A DNA stretch of 51,800 nt from an uncultured Prochlorococcus sp. (GCA_902572825.1 CACGHD010000009.1:1-51800), one strand, 5' to 3'; numbered from the stretch's first letter, positions 5,314 to 20,449 are shown. Notes: generated by a model not told the origin, from the letters alone. Numbers and translations: made by a program.

Positions 5314-6420
5314 TTATAAGTAAAGACATTTAAAAGAGTTTTCAATAAGATCGATTTTTTTAATGATTTTTATATTTGCTTTTCCAATTGATTCGCAAAG
5401 TATATATCTATTACCTTCTGATGTTCTTTTTTTATCGTTTACTATATTTTTAGTTAATTCTGAGATCTCAGGAATATCATCAGAGTTAACTTTTTTAAAA
5501 GAATTTGGAAGATTATAAATATTCAACAACTCATTAGTTTTCTCAAAAAGTTCTTTAGATTCAAAATTGTTTATTAATAAGTCTGAAAGTTTTGCGGCTA
5601 CCGTTATTCCTAAAGCAACAGCCTCTCCATGCTTAAGTTTATCTTGATATAAGCCATAATATGTCTCTATAGTTTGTCCAAAAGTATGCCCATAGTTCAG
5701 TATCAACCTTTTTGATTTTTCTTTGAAATCCCCAGAAACATGTTTTAATTTAGTAAGAACTGACCAATAAATAATATCTTCTAAAATATCTTTATTTCTT
5801 GAATAAACAAATGATTTGATATCAAAGAACTTATTGAACATTTCTTTATCTGAGGTTATAGACATTTTTATTGCCTCGCAAATTCCTGAAAGATAGTCTC
5901 TTTCACTAAGGGTAGAAAGAAAATTTAAATCCATAAAAATTGCTTTTGGATTATAGTAAGAACCTATTAAATTAACTTGATCATAAAAATTTAATCCTGT
6001 TTTACCTCCAACTGAGCTATCTATCATTGCAGTTGTTGTAGTTGGCACGTGAACTAAATCTATTCCTCTCTGGTAGGTGCTTGCGATAAAGGCGCTTAAA
6101 TCTCCGATTACACCTCCTCCAATCGCAACTATTAATCCATCTCTTGCTATATTATTTTCCACCATTACCTTTATAATTTTTTCGTAATTTGGAATTGTCT
6201 TTGCTTCGATCCCTCCATCAACAAATAAACAGTAGTAGTTATAAATAAATGAAAGATCTTTTATATATGAAGTATTAGTATTTTTAAAATAAGAATCAGA
6301 AATAATAAAAACATTCTTTTTATTATAGGTTTTTATAAAGGAATATAATTCTTTAAATATGTTATTTCCTATAAAAACAGGATATTTTTCAACCCCAACT
6401 TTTGCTTCAAAAGTATGCAT
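5314..6420 (-). CDS. 3-dehydroquinate-synthase-like sugar phosphate cyclase
   Basis: AroB-fold enzyme, 368 residues. The NAD-binding GGGVIGD (101-107), VPTTTTAMIDSSVGGK (125-140), NLIG (150-153), CEAIK (181-185), GHTFGQ (244-249) and HGEAVALG (264-271) follow the dehydroquinate synthase order. Expected Zn ligands E182, H245 and H264 are present. The second His of the family motif GHTFGH is Gln here (249), and the GKN loop reads QVN, so the substrate may not be DAHP. It is the last gene of a tight SDR-KdsB-like-cyclase unit (5-base gap) in a glycan island, not an aromatic operon; I infer a paralogue making a cyclic or modified sugar. A redundant aroB remains possible. Confidence 0.8.
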   Translation of the reverse strand: MHTFEAKVGVEKYPVFIGNNIFKELYSFIKTYNKKNVFIISDSYFKNTNTSYIKDLSFIYNYYCLFVDGGIEAKTIPNYEKIIKVMVENNIARDGLIVAIGGGVIGDLSAFIASTYQRGIDLVHVPTTTTAMIDSSVGGKTGLNFYDQVNLIGSYYNPKAIFMDLNFLSTLSERDYLSGICEAIKMSITSDKEMFNKFFDIKSFVYSRNKDILEDIIYWSVLTKLKHVSGDFKEKSKRLILNYGHTFGQTIETYYGLYQDKLKHGEAVALGITVAAKLSDLLINNFESKELFEKTNELLNIYNLPNSFKKVNSDDIPEISELTKNIVNDKKRTSEGNRYILCESIGKANIKIIKKIDLIENSFKCLYL

Positions 6421-6425
6421 AAATT

Positions 6426-7166
6426 CTAATATTTGCCAAAGAATTTATCTGTTTTCATTGCAACTCTAGCTTTTAAAAGATCATCTTGAACATCAATAGA
6501 AAATGAATTTCCTTCCACTGGAAGTGCGTATAAAAACATATCATTTTCTAGAGCTCGTAATAATTCAACATCTTCAGATTGCTCATTAGGTGTTTGTTCT
6601 AATTGACTATATTTAAGTAATGCTTTTTTTGTGAATCCAATAACAGATAAATGTTTTTGTACTGTAGGAATAGGAACTGAGTATCTATGGGGTAAGCTAG
6701 CCCTTGTTAATGTCATAATTCTCCCTGAAAGAGAAGATTGTACTCTGACGATGGTTTCAGGAACGGAGTAAGGAACTTCTAAAGTAGGAATAATAATATC
6801 TTCTTTTTTTAGATTTTTTGATATGCTGTCAGCAACAATATCAATATGGTGAGGATTAACTAAAGGTTCGTCTCCTTGTATGTCAACAACATATTCATAT
6901 TTATAATCTTCTATAACGGATGCAATTCTCTCAGTTCCATTTCTGCAGCTACTGCTTGTTAGTTTAGCTTCTACATCATAATCACTGCAGGTATTTGCTA
7001 TCTCTTCACTATCAGTACAAACAACCACCTTTCCAAGTAATTTACTTAATTGAGCTCTTTTAGCAACATGAACTATGACAGGAATATCATGAATTTTTGC
7101 TAGTGCTTTACCCGGTAATCTTTTTGATCCAAGTCTTGAAGGAATTAAACCTATTACATTTTTCAT
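6426..7166 (-). CDS. KdsB-family CMP-sugar (3-deoxy-octulosonate type) cytidylyltransferase
   Basis: A 246-residue nucleotidyltransferase with KdsB hallmarks: PSRLGSKRLPGK (9-20) for CTP, NGTERI (76-81), QGDEPLV (97-103) for the metal, and a terminal SIDVQDDLLKAR segment. Family role: CTP + 3-deoxy-2-ulosonate gives CMP-sugar + PPi. I start at ATG 7166, one base after the SDR stop (TAA-C-ATG); longer starts run into the SDR gene. Its partners (SDR and cyclase in the same unit, KdnA-like aminotransferase further upstream) suggest a modified acid sugar rather than plain Kdo. The motif variants (SKR for STR) may reflect this. Confidence 0.85.
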   Translation of the reverse strand: MKNVIGLIPSRLGSKRLPGKALAKIHDIPVIVHVAKRAQLSKLLGKVVVCTDSEEIANTCSDYDVEAKLTSSSCRNGTERIASVIEDYKYEYVVDIQGDEPLVNPHHIDIVADSISKNLKKEDIIIPTLEVPYSVPETIVRVQSSLSGRIMTLTRASLPHRYSVPIPTVQKHLSVIGFTKKALLKYSQLEQTPNEQSEDVELLRALENDMFLYALPVEGNSFSIDVQDDLLKARVAMKTDKFFGKY

Positions 7167-7167
7167 G

Positions 7168-7917
7168 TTACTTTGCAGTCCAACCTCCATCACTATATAT
7201 AACCGTACCAGTCATATAAGAATTTTTTTCTGAAATCAAAAATAAAGCTAAATCTGCAATTTCTTCGCACTTACCCCATCGCCTCATTGGAGTTTGAGAA
7301 ATAGTCCATTCATACAACTTTTTATTGTTCTTTTTGAAGCTGTCAGCATAAGATGATTCAACAAAACCTGGAGCTAAGCAGTTAATTTGAATTCCTTTAT
7401 TCCCGTATTCAACTGCTGATGACCTCATAAAACCCTCTAATGCTGATTTTGAAACAGCATAAGTTGATAATTCATCAAACCCTCTTGCTCCAACTATTGA
7501 AGAAATAAATAAAATGTTACATTTACTATTCTCATTTAAGTTAGATTCAATAACCTGTTTGGCAATGTTTATGTTTGATATCGTGTTTGTTTCAATTATT
7601 GACCTGTATAAATCTAAATTACTTTTTTTGATTGAGTTTCTTGATCTTACTCCCGCATTACAAATTGCAAAGCTAAATGGAACATATTTTTTCTGTTCTC
7701 GTTCTAATAATTTATGAATTATCTGATTTTCACAAATATCATTCTCGTAAAAAATAAATCTGTTCTGAAATTCTTTTTGGATTTTTTCGATGTTTTGATT
7801 AATAGTTCTAGAAATACCAAGTAATTTAATATTTTTATTTTCAATTAGCAATTTCTTTGTTATGGATAGTCCTATCCCTTTCCCACAGCCTGTTATTAAT
7901 CCAAATCTAGGGGACAT
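7168..7917 (-). CDS. Short-chain dehydrogenase/reductase (SDR)
   Basis: Classical SDR, 249 residues: cofactor motif TGCGKGIG (9-16), NAG (87-89), catalytic Ser in ISS (138-140), YAVSK (153-157) with Tyr and Lys, and a C-terminal GTVIYSDGGW as in FabG-type members. It reduces or oxidises a hydroxyl/keto group with NAD(P); the substrate is unknown. It is the first gene of a three-gene leftward unit, one base ahead of the KdsB-like gene, so it probably acts on the sugar that is then CMP-activated. ATG start at 7917. Confidence 0.88.
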   Translation of the reverse strand: MSPRFGLITGCGKGIGLSITKKLLIENKNIKLLGISRTINQNIEKIQKEFQNRFIFYENDICENQIIHKLLEREQKKYVPFSFAICNAGVRSRNSIKKSNLDLYRSIIETNTISNINIAKQVIESNLNENSKCNILFISSIVGARGFDELSTYAVSKSALEGFMRSSAVEYGNKGIQINCLAPGFVESSYADSFKKNNKKLYEWTISQTPMRRWGKCEEIADLALFLISEKNSYMTGTVIYSDGGWTAK

Positions 7918-8314: not shown

Positions 8315-9448
8315 TCAACCGAAATATTCCTTAAGATCCGCACCTAATTTCTCATATTCTTTCAGGCTCCTTTTTATCAATATTGGGATAGCAATCGCAT
8401 TCGAGAGAATTTTATAGGTTTTTTTAGAATGTTTGAATCCCTCCTCACCTATCAGATGCTCCCAAAAGTAACTGCAATGCCATCTCATTGCATCAGGGAG
8501 ATTCTTAGTTCCGAAGTTATTGAGCTTCAATATTTTTAAAATTTCATTAGCCTGATTGTCTTGTAAATTTATAAATATAAAGGTGTCATAAGAACCTCTA
8601 CAATTATTTAATTCTTGCCTGATATAAGGTTTGTTTGGGAAAAAGTTATTTAAAATTTGATATCTTGTCTTATGTTCATTAATAATATTTTCTAACTTAT
8701 TAAGTTGAACTTTTCCAATTGCAGCTTGAATTTCAGTCATACGATAATTAAAGCCTGGCATTATTGCTTTATCATTACCTCTTGCTACTTTAGGTTCTAA
8801 AGCATGACCATGGTCAGTGTAGGATCTGGCATATTCGTAATATTTTCTGTTATTTGTCAAGAGCATACCTCCCTCCCCACAAGTTATATTTTTACCAAAG
8901 TCGAAGCTAAAGACTCCTATATCGCCAAAGCAGCCATAATAACCATTATTATTTTTTCCTCCAACAATTTCGCAAGCATCTTCTATTATTGGGATATTGT
9001 ATTTTTTACCTATTTCAACAAGTTGTTCGATTGGCCCTCCAATTCCTAACATGTGAACGAGAATTATTGCCTTTGTATTCTTATTTATCTTTGATAAGCA
9101 ATCCTTTAGACAAAAATCCAGATTATCGTCTACATCGCATATAATAGGCTTTGCATTGCAATCATGTATGGCTTCTACAGTGGCTATAAAGTTAAAAGAT
9201 TGAGTTATAACTTCATCTCCAGGCCCAACTCCAACAGCTTTTAAGGCAGTTTTTAAAGCAGATGTTCCTGATTGAGTGGCTTGAGAATAATTAGCGGAAA
9301 AATATTTACATGAATTAGATTCAAATTCTCTTACATGAAACTTGTTCCTCAATGAATCAAAACCATGAGCAAATAATATTCCACCTTCATTAAAAACTGA
9401 TGCTGTTGCTTCTGCTTCTTCTCTACCAATAACTTCGAATCCTGGCAT
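8315..9448 (-). CDS. DegT/DnrJ aminotransferase resembling KdnA (8-amino-3,8-dideoxy-octulosonate)
   Basis: PLP-dependent sugar aminotransferase, 377 residues. SGT (60-62), GDEVITQSFNFIATVEAI (77-94), EDACE (156-160) and SFDFGKNITCGEGGM (181-195), with Lys186 as the PLP lysine, are in place. The opening MPGFE, the VHM at 131-133, the DHGHAL region and the aromatic C-terminus (MRWHCSYFWEHL) recall, from memory, Shewanella KdnA, which aminates C8 of oxidised Kdo. It lies 12 bases after the oxygenase gene in the same direction. No KdnB-type iron alcohol dehydrogenase is in the window, so another enzyme would have to make the aldehyde. Exact substrate is inferred. Confidence 0.82.
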   Translation of the reverse strand: MPGFEVIGREEAEATASVFNEGGILFAHGFDSLRNKFHVREFESNSCKYFSANYSQATQSGTSALKTALKAVGVGPGDEVITQSFNFIATVEAIHDCNAKPIICDVDDNLDFCLKDCLSKINKNTKAIILVHMLGIGGPIEQLVEIGKKYNIPIIEDACEIVGGKNNNGYYGCFGDIGVFSFDFGKNITCGEGGMLLTNNRKYYEYARSYTDHGHALEPKVARGNDKAIMPGFNYRMTEIQAAIGKVQLNKLENIINEHKTRYQILNNFFPNKPYIRQELNNCRGSYDTFIFINLQDNQANEILKILKLNNFGTKNLPDAMRWHCSYFWEHLIGEEGFKHSKKTYKILSNAIAIPILIKRSLKEYEKLGADLKEYFG

Positions 9449-15426: not shown

Positions 15427-16350
15427 TTATGAAGGTTCCCAATCCCAAGGATCAATACCTTTGTTTGCAGGCCTTTGCATTAAGTGATTTCCAAATTGAT
15501 CAATTGTCAAAGATTTACGCATTCTTAATCTATTATCTTTCTCACATCTGGTAACTTCCTTATCTTTGTTGCCCATAAATATTTCAGCTTTTCGAATCAT
15601 TTGAATAAATTCTTCGAGTTCTTGTGGTTCGAGACTTGCTTTATGATCTGGCCCACTTAATTTATTTGATAATGTAAAGTGTTTTTCAATATAATTTACT
15701 CCTTTTGCTACTGCACATAAAGATGCAAGTTTACCCTCGCTATGATCAGAAAATCCTGTAGGTAAATCAAATGTTTTCATATAGGTATCTAAAACATTTA
15801 GATTTAAATATTCATCAGGACAAGGGTATTCAGAGGTACATTGCATTATTACAATTTCGCCAGAAGAGGTAAATGATTTTATGTAATTTATTGATCTCTG
15901 TACTTCAAAAAAAGTTGCCATTCCAGTCGATAGAATTATCTGTAAACCGGTTTGAGAAGCCTTATATAGGAGAGGTTTATTATCAATATCTGAAGAAGAA
16001 ATTTTAATTCTTTTAATACCAATTGATATTAAGAAATCCAAATCAACCGGATCGGAAGGCGTAGACATAAATTCTATTTTTACATCATCACAATATTTTT
16101 TTAAGCATTCAAATTCGTCATAAGTAAGTTGTAAAGGTCTAAGCATTTCTCTTTGATTAATTTCAGAAGACAAATTTGAAACTTGATATTTAGCTAAAGA
16201 GGCTGATTCGCTGGCTATCCTCTCGTAATCAAATGTCTGGAACTTTACAGCATTACAACCTGCCTTTTTAGCTACATCTATTAATTTAATTGCATTTTCA
16301 AGTGATCCATTATGATTAACCCCTGCTTCTCCAATAACAAAAACCGACAT
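15427..16350 (-). CDS. neuB: NeuB-family nonulosonate synthase with shortened SAF domain
   Basis: PEP-condensing NeuB enzyme, 307 residues. IGEAGVNHNGS (6-16), AVKFQTF (34-40), STPSD, IKISSSDI, ILSTGMA, QCTSEYPCP, TGFSDHSEG and IEKHFTL...GPDHKASLEP are all in family order. The C-terminal antifreeze-like (SAF) domain is cut to about 35 residues (RKSLTIDQFG then KGIDPWDWEPS), lacking the usual central part. ATG 16350 is chosen since the catalytic domain begins at once. Role: condenses an N-acetyl mannosamine-type sugar with PEP. The SAF loss could impair substrate binding, since in NeuB this domain completes the partner's active site. Confidence 0.82.
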   Translation of the reverse strand: MSVFVIGEAGVNHNGSLENAIKLIDVAKKAGCNAVKFQTFDYERIASESASLAKYQVSNLSSEINQREMLRPLQLTYDEFECLKKYCDDVKIEFMSTPSDPVDLDFLISIGIKRIKISSSDIDNKPLLYKASQTGLQIILSTGMATFFEVQRSINYIKSFTSSGEIVIMQCTSEYPCPDEYLNLNVLDTYMKTFDLPTGFSDHSEGKLASLCAVAKGVNYIEKHFTLSNKLSGPDHKASLEPQELEEFIQMIRKAEIFMGNKDKEVTRCEKDNRLRMRKSLTIDQFGNHLMQRPANKGIDPWDWEPS

Positions 16351-16500
16351 AATTTCAAAAAGGTAAAAATTTAGAATAAGAAGGCGAAATAGTTCCTGTT
16401 TTCGTTTTTCTCTCAATTACCATAGTAGCTTATCCTATATTTATATTTCGCGCTATAAATGCTTTATCCAAAATTGTTGAATTAGTTCCTATAAGATTAA

Positions 16501-17429: not shown

Positions 17430-18140
17430 ATGTTGAAAAAATTAAAAAGTTTTAAAGATTCTACAATTGCAATTATACCCGCCCGAGGCGGTTCTACTAG
17501 AATTAAAAATAAGAACCTAAAAAAAATAGGAACAAATACTTTAGTTAGAAAATCTATTCAGACTTGTACTAAAAGCGGAATTTTTGATCAAATTATTTTA
17601 TCAAGTGACTCTCCAGAAATTAGAAATCATTCAAAAGATTTAGCTTTAGTTCATAAGCGCTCAGCGATTAATTCAACAAGTATTTCTAGTTCTGAAAGTG
17701 TAGTTCAAGAGGTAATTGATGATTTGCCTGATTTATTTAAAAATCAAGTTTTGATTTATCTTGTTCAATGCACCTCTCCTTTTTTAAAGCCCGAGAATCT
17801 CTCAGAAAGCTATAAATTAATTAAAGGCAATCTTAGTCAATATAATTGTTTGTTATCGGGTTATTTCTTTAATAAGTTTATTTGGGAGAAGGATAAAAAT
17901 AGTCAATCATGGTTGCCAAAAAATTATAACCCGCAGAATAGACCAAGATCACAAGATAAATCCCCTCTATTCGTAGAAAATGGTGCCTTTTATGTTTTTG
18001 GTTCAGCCAATTTTAAATTAACAAATTGTCGAATACATGGTGAAGTTGGTATTTATCCCATGGACGAATTAAGATCAGTAGATATTGATGAGAAAGATGA
18101 TTTAGATTATTCAATTTATTTATCAAAATATTTAAAATAA
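17430..18140 (+). CDS. CMP-nonulosonate synthetase (NeuA/PseF-like cytidylyltransferase)
   Basis: A 236-residue enzyme of the acylneuraminate cytidylyltransferase family: IPARGGSTRIKNKNL (around 16-30) is the CTP loop, LSSDSPEI (54-61) and LVQCTSPFL (the QxTSP motif) follow, then NRPRSQDKSPLFVENGAFYVF and DIDEKDDLDY, both family signatures. It activates a nonulosonic acid with CTP. Its stop overlaps the start of the NeuB fusion (TAATG), so synthase and activase are co-translated. Whether the sugar is of sialic, legionaminic or pseudaminic type cannot be decided. Confidence 0.9.
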   Translation: MLKKLKSFKDSTIAIIPARGGSTRIKNKNLKKIGTNTLVRKSIQTCTKSGIFDQIILSSDSPEIRNHSKDLALVHKRSAINSTSISSSESVVQEVIDDLPDLFKNQVLIYLVQCTSPFLKPENLSESYKLIKGNLSQYNCLLSGYFFNKFIWEKDKNSQSWLPKNYNPQNRPRSQDKSPLFVENGAFYVFGSANFKLTNCRIHGEVGIYPMDELRSVDIDEKDDLDYSIYLSKYLK

Positions 18141-20449
18141 TGAATTTAGACTTTTTTCAAAAGATGTTTATCGATTCTGAACTTGATAGATTTGTTATTG
18201 ATATTAATAAATCAGTAAAATATGCAATGTCTCTTTTTGAAAATAATGCAGGTTTGCCCCTAATTGCAATAAATAATCAAAATGAATTAATTGGAACTTT
18301 AAGTAATGGTGATATTAGAGTTTTTATTTCAAAAGGCCAAAACAATATTGATGCTCCAATAATAAAAGCAATAAATAAAGAATCAAAATATTGTTTCGAT
18401 CATTTTGATAAGAGTATTTTTGAACATTTACTATCTAATCCAAAGATTAGAATAGTACCAATTATAGATAAACATAAAAAATTAAAAGCAGTAGCTTATT
18501 ATGACCAAATTCATTTTAAAATTGGCAATAAAATTTTAAATAATAAATCAAACTATACCTATTTGATAGCAGAGATAGGAGTTAATCATAATGGAAAAGT
18601 AGAAGAGGCGATTGACTTGATAAATAACATATCTAATGCAGGCTTCGATGCTGTGAAAATGCAATTTAGATCTTCTGAAACTTATTCAAATATCAAGATG
18701 AATAATGATATTGATTTAGGTACTGAGTATATCTTAAGTGAACTAAAAAGGGTGGAATTGAAATTTGATCAAGAGAAAAAAATTATTGAGCATATAAAGA
18801 CTAAAAACTTAGATTTTATAGGAACACCATTTGATAATAAATCATTAGAGAGATTATTAGCTTATAAACCGGATGCAATCAAGATAGCATCTTGTGACAT
18901 GACGAATAATATTTTAATTGAAAATTGTGCAAAAAATAATCTTCCAATAATTATAAGTACTGGGATGTCAAATGAAACTGAAATTATAAGAACTAATCAA
19001 ATTCTTGAAGATTTGAACGTGAATAGATGTTTTTTACATTGTAATTCAACTTATCCAACACCAATAGAGGATGTAAATTTGTCATATATAAATAGATTAC
19101 GTTTAATTACTAAATGCATTATTGGTTATTCATCACATGATGGCAATCAATTAATACCTTTAGCATCAATTGCTTCTGGGGCAAAAATTGTAGAGCTGCA
19201 TATAACAAGAGATAAGAATGCTAAAGGAACTGATCACATTGCATCTATATCTTTAGACGAGACTCATGCATTTGTTGAATCTGCAAGAAAACTATCTTTA
19301 GCAAATGGTTCTGAAAGGCCGAGATCCCCTTCTCAGGGAGAGTTAATGAATAAAATACCTCTTGGCAAAAGTCTTTGCTATGCAAATGACTTTCCAAAAG
19401 GTTATCAAATTAAATCAACCTATGACTTTTCAGCTTGTTCACCTGGAGATGGAATTCAGGTTCGAGATTATAAAAAATTTCAAAATAAGATTTTAAAGAT
19501 AGGAGTTAAAAAATTAGATAGAGTGGATGATTATCATTTTACTGGGGAAATAAAAAAAGATGAATCTCCTTTAAGTGATTTCTCAAAAATGGTTTTATCA
19601 AATTTCCTTTGGGGTATTCCAGTTAGGTATCGAGACATTGAAATATTAAATAATATCTTTAATCCACCTTTATTAGAAATACATTTAAGCTCTAGAGATT
19701 TAGAGTATGATTTAAAATTAATTGATAAATCAAATTTTATTGGAAAAACAATAGTAGTGCATGCTATTGAACAATATCATGATGGTTTTCTACTTGATCT
19801 TGCATCAGAAGATAGTGATTTAAATGATGAAAGTTTAAAAAGATTTGATAATTTGATTATCCACTGTAATAAAATTCTAGATCACATAGGTTCAAAACAA
19901 CCTATAAAAATAGTTTTAAATTGTGGAGGTTTTACAAAGCATGGTTTTTGTGATGCGAGTAATCTTTCAATTAAGAAAAAAATACTATATGAAAATTTAA
20001 ATAATTTAAAAAATAAGTATCCTGATTTTAAAATTTTACCTCAAACAATGCCGCCATTCCCCTGGCATCAAGGCGGGACTTCGTATCATAATTTGATGAG
20101 ATCATCTAAAGATATTCAAGAAATGAATAAGGAAACAGGGCTAAAAATATGTTTTGATTTTTCTCATACTTTCATGGAATCAAAGTACTCAAATAGCTCA
20201 TTTAATGATAATTTTTTGCAAATAATTCAATTTGCTGATCATTTACATTTGTCAGATAGTAGTTCTTCATCAAATGAAGGTTTAAATATAGATGATGGTA
20301 ATATTGATTTTAAATTCACATTAGATAAAATTTTCAACTCTAGTAATAACAAAGTAATTTCATTTATTCCTGAAGTTTGGCAAGGTCATCTTAAAAATGG
20401 AGAAGGATTTAAAATATCCCTAGAACGAATAGCTAGATATTTATCATAA
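18140..20449 (+). CDS. CBS–NeuB–SAF–TIM barrel fusion (nonulosonate synthase)
   Basis: A 769-residue multi-domain protein. Residues 1-125 are a CBS pair (LIGTLSNGDIRVFI). Residues 140-395 are NeuB: LIAEIGVNHNG (142-152), AVKMQF, GTPFDN, IKIASCDM, IISTGMS, HCNSTYPTP, GYSSHDG, VELHIT and GTDHIAS. SAF, about 405-455 (IPLGKSLCYANDFPKGYQI), is complete. Residues 485-769 are a sugar isomerase/epimerase-like barrel with VVHAIEQYHDG, LNCGG, ICFDFSH, HLHLSDSS and FIPEVWQG. A single chain may therefore isomerise, condense with PEP and sense a nucleotide. TAATG coupling to the CMP-synthetase gene supports a nonulosonate role. Confidence 0.9.
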   Translation: MNLDFFQKMFIDSELDRFVIDINKSVKYAMSLFENNAGLPLIAINNQNELIGTLSNGDIRVFISKGQNNIDAPIIKAINKESKYCFDHFDKSIFEHLLSNPKIRIVPIIDKHKKLKAVAYYDQIHFKIGNKILNNKSNYTYLIAEIGVNHNGKVEEAIDLINNISNAGFDAVKMQFRSSETYSNIKMNNDIDLGTEYILSELKRVELKFDQEKKIIEHIKTKNLDFIGTPFDNKSLERLLAYKPDAIKIASCDMTNNILIENCAKNNLPIIISTGMSNETEIIRTNQILEDLNVNRCFLHCNSTYPTPIEDVNLSYINRLRLITKCIIGYSSHDGNQLIPLASIASGAKIVELHITRDKNAKGTDHIASISLDETHAFVESARKLSLANGSERPRSPSQGELMNKIPLGKSLCYANDFPKGYQIKSTYDFSACSPGDGIQVRDYKKFQNKILKIGVKKLDRVDDYHFTGEIKKDESPLSDFSKMVLSNFLWGIPVRYRDIEILNNIFNPPLLEIHLSSRDLEYDLKLIDKSNFIGKTIVVHAIEQYHDGFLLDLASEDSDLNDESLKRFDNLIIHCNKILDHIGSKQPIKIVLNCGGFTKHGFCDASNLSIKKKILYENLNNLKNKYPDFKILPQTMPPFPWHQGGTSYHNLMRSSKDIQEMNKETGLKICFDFSHTFMESKYSNSSFNDNFLQIIQFADHLHLSDSSSSSNEGLNIDDGNIDFKFTLDKIFNSSNNKVISFIPEVWQGHLKNGEGFKISLERIARYLS

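Follow-up and report, generated by a model that had tools for sequence, protein, structure and literature searches.

Gene organization and genomic setting of the cassette

The window analysed here is a stretch of 51,800 nucleotides (CACGHD010000009.1:1-51800) from an uncultured Prochlorococcus sp. (GCA_902572825.1), corresponding to contig C9 of a genome of 1.33 Mb that is 79% complete. On the minus strand of this contig three open reading frames follow one another in the order SDR, KdsB-like and AroB-like:

7168..7917, minus strand: SDR oxidoreductase, 249 aa, cassette gene 1 (PF13561/PF00106)
6426..7166, minus strand: KdsB-like CMP-sugar synthetase, cassette gene 2 (ATG start; PF02348, 132.9 bits)
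5314..6420, minus strand: AroB-like sugar phosphate cyclase of a DHQ synthase (DHQS)-sister clade, 368 aa, cassette gene 3 (PF01761 and PF24621)

The genes are separated by 1 base (SDR/KdsB-like) and 5 bases (KdsB-like/AroB-like). The TAA stop codon of the SDR gene is followed after one base by the KdsB-like ATG at 7166, and the TAG of the KdsB-like gene after five bases by the cyclase ATG at 6420; a GTG at 7193 merely extends the KdsB-like frame into the SDR gene. Both the sequence and the family matches agree with the initial annotation of this DNA, which had described an oxidoreductase, a Kdo-type CMP-sugar synthetase and an AroB-type cyclase lying one and five bases apart, and catalytic residues were found in all three proteins.

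The surroundings of the cassette are made up of glycan genes, including two DegT/LegC-type aminotransferases, NeuB, SpsF-like and NeuA-like cytidylyltransferases and methyltransferases. The upstream aminotransferase gene (8315-9448) lies about 400 bases away, and NeuB-type synthases are encoded elsewhere in the window (15427-16416 and 18140-20449). The region 17430-20449 contains a NeuA-like cytidylyltransferase gene followed directly by the gene for a 769-residue protein in which a NeuB domain occupies the middle and a xylose-isomerase-like barrel the C-terminus.

Recurrence of the cassette in picocyanobacteria

The initial annotation had proposed looking for the trio in other genomes, and it was found in identical order in seven further picocyanobacterial genomes (G423/AG-388-A01, G308, G115, G225, G277, G031 and G394). 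Because the same order recurs in these genomes, the cassette is a real, conserved unit and not a chance neighbourhood. A KdsB search of 300 genomes of the family gave, besides the window, close matches in G115, G225 and G277 (63, 54 and 52% identity), with the divergent cassette of G031 among the weaker matches, and, among 200 genomes of the genus, the cyclase picked up G308 and G423 in addition, the latter (Prochlorococcus sp. AG-388-A01) being the closest named match of the cassette and of the same genus as the window genome. In 400 genomes of the family, a clade-profile search in which clade cyclases scored at least 350 bits and ordinary AroB proteins at most 291 added G394, with a full trio, and G409, where the gene after the cyclase is a PF02348 gene of a different kind and no SDR adjoins. 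The neighbours outside the trio vary by genome and are mostly polysaccharide genes, the trio alone being common to the loci.

The cassette is rare. Among 390 genomes of the class none but the window's own matched at the threshold used, and when about 25 loci carrying other KdsB genes of picocyanobacteria were searched with the same queries, over some 1.5 kb to either side, none had an AroB-like neighbour. A single-sequence scan of genome contigs gave one relative only, and viral contigs gave no match when scanned with an SDR profile. In phage and plasmid records, searches with the cyclase and with KdsB returned matches that were all below 60% identity, those inspected being in ordinary aroB or kdsB contexts.

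Two of the loci show additional features. At the G409 locus (L177:8422-13365), which reads as a variant pathway without an adjacent SDR, the clade cyclase lies between a methyltransferase and a PF02348 gene that is not of the KdsB type, with a sulfotransferase and an ATP-grasp protein after them. In G031, at 2 kb from the cassette, lies a fragment of 168 residues that corresponds to the C-terminal half of a DHQ synthase (L042:5683-6189) and is perhaps a decayed second cyclase.

The cyclase belongs to a sister clade of the DHQ synthases

A PF01761 search of the window genome matched two genes, that of the cassette and, more strongly, one on contig C3 that scored 390.6 bits with the aroB equivalog model TIGR01357 (cut-off 305). 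The cassette cyclase scored 299 bits, under this curated cut-off, and the same was observed for other cassette-type cyclases (L039, 282.8; L040, 275.6; L041, 273.6; L042, 246.9), the cyclase of the viral contig L049 being the only tested clade member that reaches it (307.8). A separate aroB is present in 8 of the 9 genomes with a clade cyclase, while the draft genome G394 shows the cassette gene only. The presence of an ordinary aroB elsewhere in the window genome rules out that the cassette cyclase is its only one.

In two trees of 66 and 31 rows the cassette cyclases formed a single clade of 10 members (support 100/98 and 100/99.2), placed as sister to DHQ synthases of cyanobacteria, Acinetobacter, Leptospira and Lactococcus (support of the join 99/90 and 89/87) and, in both trees, apart from a large phage clade of TIGR04425-like sequences and from cyclases of the sedoheptulose-7-phosphate (S7P) type. 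The members are picocyanobacterial, with the addition of L049. All 10 have a PF02348 gene at the locus, adjoining the cyclase or, in L049, three genes on; this partner is KdsB-type in eight members and of another type in G409 and L049, and an SDR lies next to the cyclase in 9 of the 10. The group is a new sister clade of the DHQ synthases that is associated with CMP-sugar synthetases. Placement in a tree and a search for a second aroB had both been suggested in the initial annotation, which would have yielded had the cyclase been the genome's only aroB and fallen inside the DHQ synthases; it has instead a clade of its own outside them (100/99), and the ordinary aroB is that on contig C3. In place of the earlier wording "aromatic-pathway cyclase", the protein is better described as belonging to a DHQS-sister clade whose DAHP-type pocket is intact.

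The active site, numbered as in A. nidulans DHQS and mapped via conserved motifs, is altered at two positions in a largely conserved setting:

5707..5751, minus strand: cyclase K224 to R238, corresponding to DHQS K250, E260 and R264 of the DAHP pocket; retained
5725..5727, minus strand: cyclase F232, at the position of DHQS Glu258; changed in the whole clade
5674..5676, minus strand: cyclase Q249, corresponding to DHQS His275; Gln in the main clade

The clade retains R130, D146, K152, N162, E194, K197, K250, D257, E260, R264, N268, H271, H287 and K356. S7P-type cyclases, for which a DDGS-like (L115, 5tpr) and an EEVS-like (L113, 4p53) sequence identified by PDB search served as references, differ from it at 250, 264, 268 and 356; the pocket K and R are as in all DHQS, where the S7P-type cyclases tested have M/H/Y and D/S/E/C. 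An S7P cyclase is ruled out by the DHQS-type K, R, N and K at these four positions. Since the DAHP-type pocket is retained, the clade should, to judge from these residues, bind a carboxylated, DAHP-like phosphate. The position of Glu258 is E in all AroB rows tested and F, L, P, Y, I or V in 10 of 10 clade members, and that of His275 is Gln in six main-clade members and His in AroB, G031, G394, G409 and L049. In DHQS, His275 is described as taking up the C5-hydroxyl proton in the first oxidation (PMC7144000).

The AlphaFold model of the cyclase (pLDDT 90.7) predicts a full DHQS fold, with the best Z score, 46.5, to 1nvd (2.0 A over 353 residues). Other cyclases are near in fold score (2gru, Z 40.6; 4p53, 39.9), and the fold alone leaves the activity unsettled.

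The SDR and the KdsB-like enzyme

The SDR proteins of the trios keep the N111, S139, Y153 and K157 tetrad, the NAD(P)-binding TGxGxGIG motif and a conserved NAGxRSR/RCR motif, so the window protein has the cofactor motif and N-S-Y-K tetrad of a classical SDR. By PDB search it is generic FabG-like, and its substrate therefore cannot be named. For the G031 SDR the top NCBIfam model, with a score far under the cut-off, was KduD, an enzyme that carries out an analogous reduction of a 3-deoxy-diulosonate.

The KdsB-like protein, the only PF02348 match of comparable strength in the window genome, scored 107.5 bits with the kdsB model TIGR00466, under the cut-off of 155.2, and keeps the R/K catalytic loop of cytidylyltransferases and the QGDEP and SxDxxDD motifs. 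Its predicted structure was weak (pLDDT 74.9) and was left out of use. Two positions that presumably contact the sugar are changed (numbering from 7193):

6639..6641, minus strand: KdsB-like I185, Tyr in canonical KdsBs
6561..6563, minus strand: KdsB-like L211, usually Gln in canonical KdsBs

Position 185 is Ile in all 8 cassette KdsBs, against Tyr in each of 25 others from picocyanobacteria, and position 211 is Leu (8/8) in the former and Gln (22/25) in the latter. Ile185 is also found in a viral KdsB (L073) and in a KdsB of a Marivivens plasmid (L123), and is not exclusive to the cassette. Because the plasmid enzyme, encoded in an LPS gene context, bears the same Ile/Leu residues, the changes Y185I and Q211L may be taken as no more than supporting evidence for a substrate other than Kdo. 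In the viral contig a KDPG/KHG aldolase gene overlaps the KdsB gene, which is of the cassette subgroup (L073:4130-5547); this overlap fits a KdsB subgroup activating short 2-keto-3-deoxy acids, and the phage possibly makes such an acid in CMP-activated form.

PF00793, which takes in both DAHP synthase and Kdo-8-phosphate synthase (KdsA), matched one gene each in G000, G423, G308, G394, G409 and G031, so that no separate KdsA was found by this search either in G031 or in the five clade-cyclase genomes of Prochlorococcus. The lone match of the window genome is a DAHP synthase (TIGR00034, 503.6 bits), and although this genome is about 79% complete the same single match was obtained in G031 and G409, which are 99% complete. 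The Synechococcus-like G115, G225 and G277 have an additional KdsA near a canonical KdsB, separate from the cassette. Judged from these gene sets, the cassette KdsB is either a paralogue or encoded in a genome without detected Kdo synthesis. As KdsA was not found or a separate kdsA/kdsB pair exists elsewhere, the cassette does not represent an ordinary Kdo pathway, which is ruled out by the single PF00793 gene (DAHP synthase) or the separate canonical pair.

A viral fusion protein and the possible precursor

The IMG/VR contig L049 encodes a cyclase of 39% identity followed by an SDR and, further downstream, a 498-residue protein with an N-terminal PF02348 domain (E 1.6e-7) and a C-terminal DAHP synthase part that scored 361 bits with TIGR01361 (cut-off 268). 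Scans with the L049 proteins gave no match beyond L049 itself. As the protein fuses a cytidylyltransferase to the enzyme making the substrate of DHQS, this fusion, seen in one contig, is the most direct hint that the precursor might be DAHP.

Proposed pathway and alternatives

Altogether, the evidence suggests that the product of the trio is probably a hitherto undescribed acidic component of the surface coat, with DAHP as its probable precursor. A CMP-activated acid other than Kdo is the best reading of the product. The chances somewhat favour a DAHP-derived, CMP-activated C7 acid in either an open-chain or a carbocyclic form, and the open-chain (3,7-dideoxy) form in particular is put forward tentatively, at rather less than even chances. 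The initial annotation had envisaged a CMP-activated carbocyclic or rearranged sugar, which is supported in part: its CMP-activated acid agrees with the best reading, but the carbocycle does not, a ring-closed C7 acid being without an anomeric carbon for a normal glycosyl donor. On the best reading 3,7-dideoxyheptulosonate fits CMP activation better, and its un-cyclised form accounts for the SDR and the KdsB-like enzyme no less well than the carbocycle.

It can be hypothesized that the trio is a dedicated side branch leaving the shikimate pathway at its entry, and that it provides a surface glycan with a CMP-activated acidic C7 sugar. DAHP would come from the only DAHP synthase of the cell, which is present, and the AroB-like enzyme, given its intact pocket, would bind DAHP or a close 3-deoxy-heptulosonate 7-phosphate and follow the chemistry of DHQS, with oxidation at C5, expulsion of the C7 phosphate and re-reduction of C5. 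Its product would probably not, or not only, be 3-dehydroquinate. More speculatively, the loss of Glu258 and the change of His275 to Gln might cause the 6-keto-7-methyl form to be freed or kept un-cyclised, the intermediate captured ahead of ring closure being 3,7-dideoxy-hepto-2,6-diulosonate, a compound that also occurs as an intermediate when archaea make DHQ. The SDR would then reduce the C6 ketone to yield a pyranose-forming 3,7-dideoxy-hept-2-ulosonate, the KdsB-like enzyme, as its family suggests, would join the C2 hydroxyl to CMP, and a glycosyltransferase of the surrounding island would transfer the activated acid. Such a pathway predicts a new C7 acid in the surface glycans of picocyanobacteria, the first contact for phages and grazers.

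On Kdo, the hydroxyl activated by KdsB enzymes is that at C2, next to the carboxyl group (PMC3149649), and interception would make chemical sense because the ring closure of DHQS consumes the DAHP ketone corresponding to this C2. Conversely, DHQS is reported to pass through its late steps spontaneously (PMC7144000), meaning that a halt ahead of ring closure would need active control, which counts against the open-chain product. Four clade members that keep His275, and G409 with no SDR beside the cyclase, also count against this explanation, and in most members the link to DAHP comes from active-site residues, the DAHP synthase fusion being confined to one contig. The open-chain and carbocyclic products are isomers (C7H12O6), so that mass spectrometry alone cannot decide between them.

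The carbocyclic product, which we consider unlikely, would be formed if the cyclase made 3-dehydroquinate or an epimer, the SDR reduced this to an acid resembling quinate, and CMP were then added by the KdsB-like enzyme at the tertiary C1 hydroxyl next to the carboxylate, giving a CMP pseudo-sugar. C1 of quinate (OH, COOH, CH2) resembles C2 of an ulosonic acid, the pocket and fold are those of DHQS, the L049 cyclase scores above the aroB cut-off (307.8 vs 305), an SDR lies next to nearly every clade cyclase (9/10) and interception is not needed; furthermore, NDP-cyclitols occur in the acarbose and validamycin pathways. However, a carbocycle lacks the ring oxygen that stabilises a glycosyl cation, which would make its CMP ester a poor donor, and the clade has departed from DHQS in sequence; we know of no CMP-cyclitol acid, and none was found in the literature searched. 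If true, bacteria would build a nucleotide pseudo-sugar via a shikimate-type ring closure into a surface glycan. The presence of NeuB-type synthases elsewhere in the window, the C8 acids that are the normal substrates of the KdsB family and the other type of PF02348 enzyme used by G409 and L049 would suit a different phosphorylated ulosonic acid (e.g., C8 or C9), on which the cyclase would act as a phosphate lyase or epimerase. The DAHP synthase fusion of L049, the absence of a second PF00793 gene in six clade-cyclase genomes and the restriction of the common genes to the trio make this quite unlikely.

Phages carry AroB-like and SDR pairs without an adjacent KdsB, as might be expected if the cyclase and SDR made a free quinate-like cyclohexane-carboxylic acid as a non-nucleotide decoration and the KdsB-like enzyme activated an unrelated acid, the three genes being merely transferred as a bundle; but those pairs belong to a different clade, and the spacing of 1 and 5 bases in the window and the unchanged order across divergent genomes render the idea distinctly improbable. 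A spare DHQ synthase boosting aromatic amino-acid synthesis among chance neighbours is barely credible in view of the separate aroB, the separate clade, the conserved cytidylyltransferase partner and the glycan island, despite a score near that of the aroB model (299 vs 305).

Comparison with known systems

Neither the trio nor a characterised equivalent was described in the literature searched, in agreement with the initial annotation, which knew of no characterised pathway with exactly these three genes; the trio links the entry to aromatic biosynthesis with CMP-sugar activation, a link that was likewise not found there. The cassette cyclase resembles AroB (TIGR01357) in its fold (Z 46.5), its metal/NAD and DAHP-binding residues and its position as a sister clade, and departs from it in the loss of Glu258, the replacement of His275 by Gln in the main clade, the score of 299 against 305 and the partnership with a CMP-sugar synthetase.

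TIGR04425, an AroB-related putative sugar phosphate phospholyase, also comprises DHQS-like enzymes found beside an SDR in glycan clusters; however, the cassette cyclase scored 205.4 bits with this model (cut-off 400), and the phage TIGR04425-like sequences form a separate, strongly supported clade that keeps His275 and nearly always Glu258 and has mostly Asp at 260 and partly His at 197. Membership of TIGR04425 is ruled out by score and tree. In many phage contigs (L051:9297-12641, L055:7477-10867, L057:8428-12581, and L063/L067 at about 9-11 kb) an AroB-like gene of this TIGR04425-nearest clade directly follows an SDR gene. A ThDP enzyme lies next to the pair in L051, L055 and L057; that of L057, which also has an HpcH/HpaI aldolase, is acetolactate-synthase-like by NCBIfam, and the N-termini are similar in L051 and L055. 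A DHQS and acetolactate synthase in prasinoviruses were read as amino-acid biosynthesis (PMC5371798); the phage pair of AroB-like and ThDP enzymes looks like a sugar cassette. The phage contigs L067 (5696-6799) and L063 (6345-7451) also encode a PF02348 cytidylyltransferase, which in L067 is fused to a cupin domain; an aminotransferase gene, of class III in L067, comes next, and the SDR and AroB-like pair lies a few genes further downstream.

The S7P cyclases (EEVS, DDGS and EboD-like) are of the same superfamily and serve dedicated secondary pathways, but they replace pocket positions 250, 264, 268 and 356, at which the cassette cyclases keep the DAHP type. The KdsB-like enzyme shares with the CMP-Kdo synthetase KdsB the PF02348 family, the catalytic residues and about 30% identity, and is distinguished by a score under the kdsB cut-off, by Y185I and Q211L and by being paralogous to the canonical KdsB in G115, G225 and G277.

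In the 8-amino-Kdo pathway of Shewanella (KdnA/KdnB/KdsB), a KdsB variant together with an enzyme of the DHQS/Fe-alcohol-dehydrogenase fold leads to a modified CMP-ulosonic acid. KdnB is an Fe-type alcohol dehydrogenase that acts on Kdo together with an aminotransferase, whereas the cassette has an AroB-type enzyme and an SDR, and kdsA was not found in the window genome. The DHQS-sister clade defined here will tend to be labelled aroB by annotation pipelines, and in this it resembles the EboD clade, likewise AroB-like and dedicated to an unknown product, whose members databases mislabel as DHQ synthase (PMC5133447).
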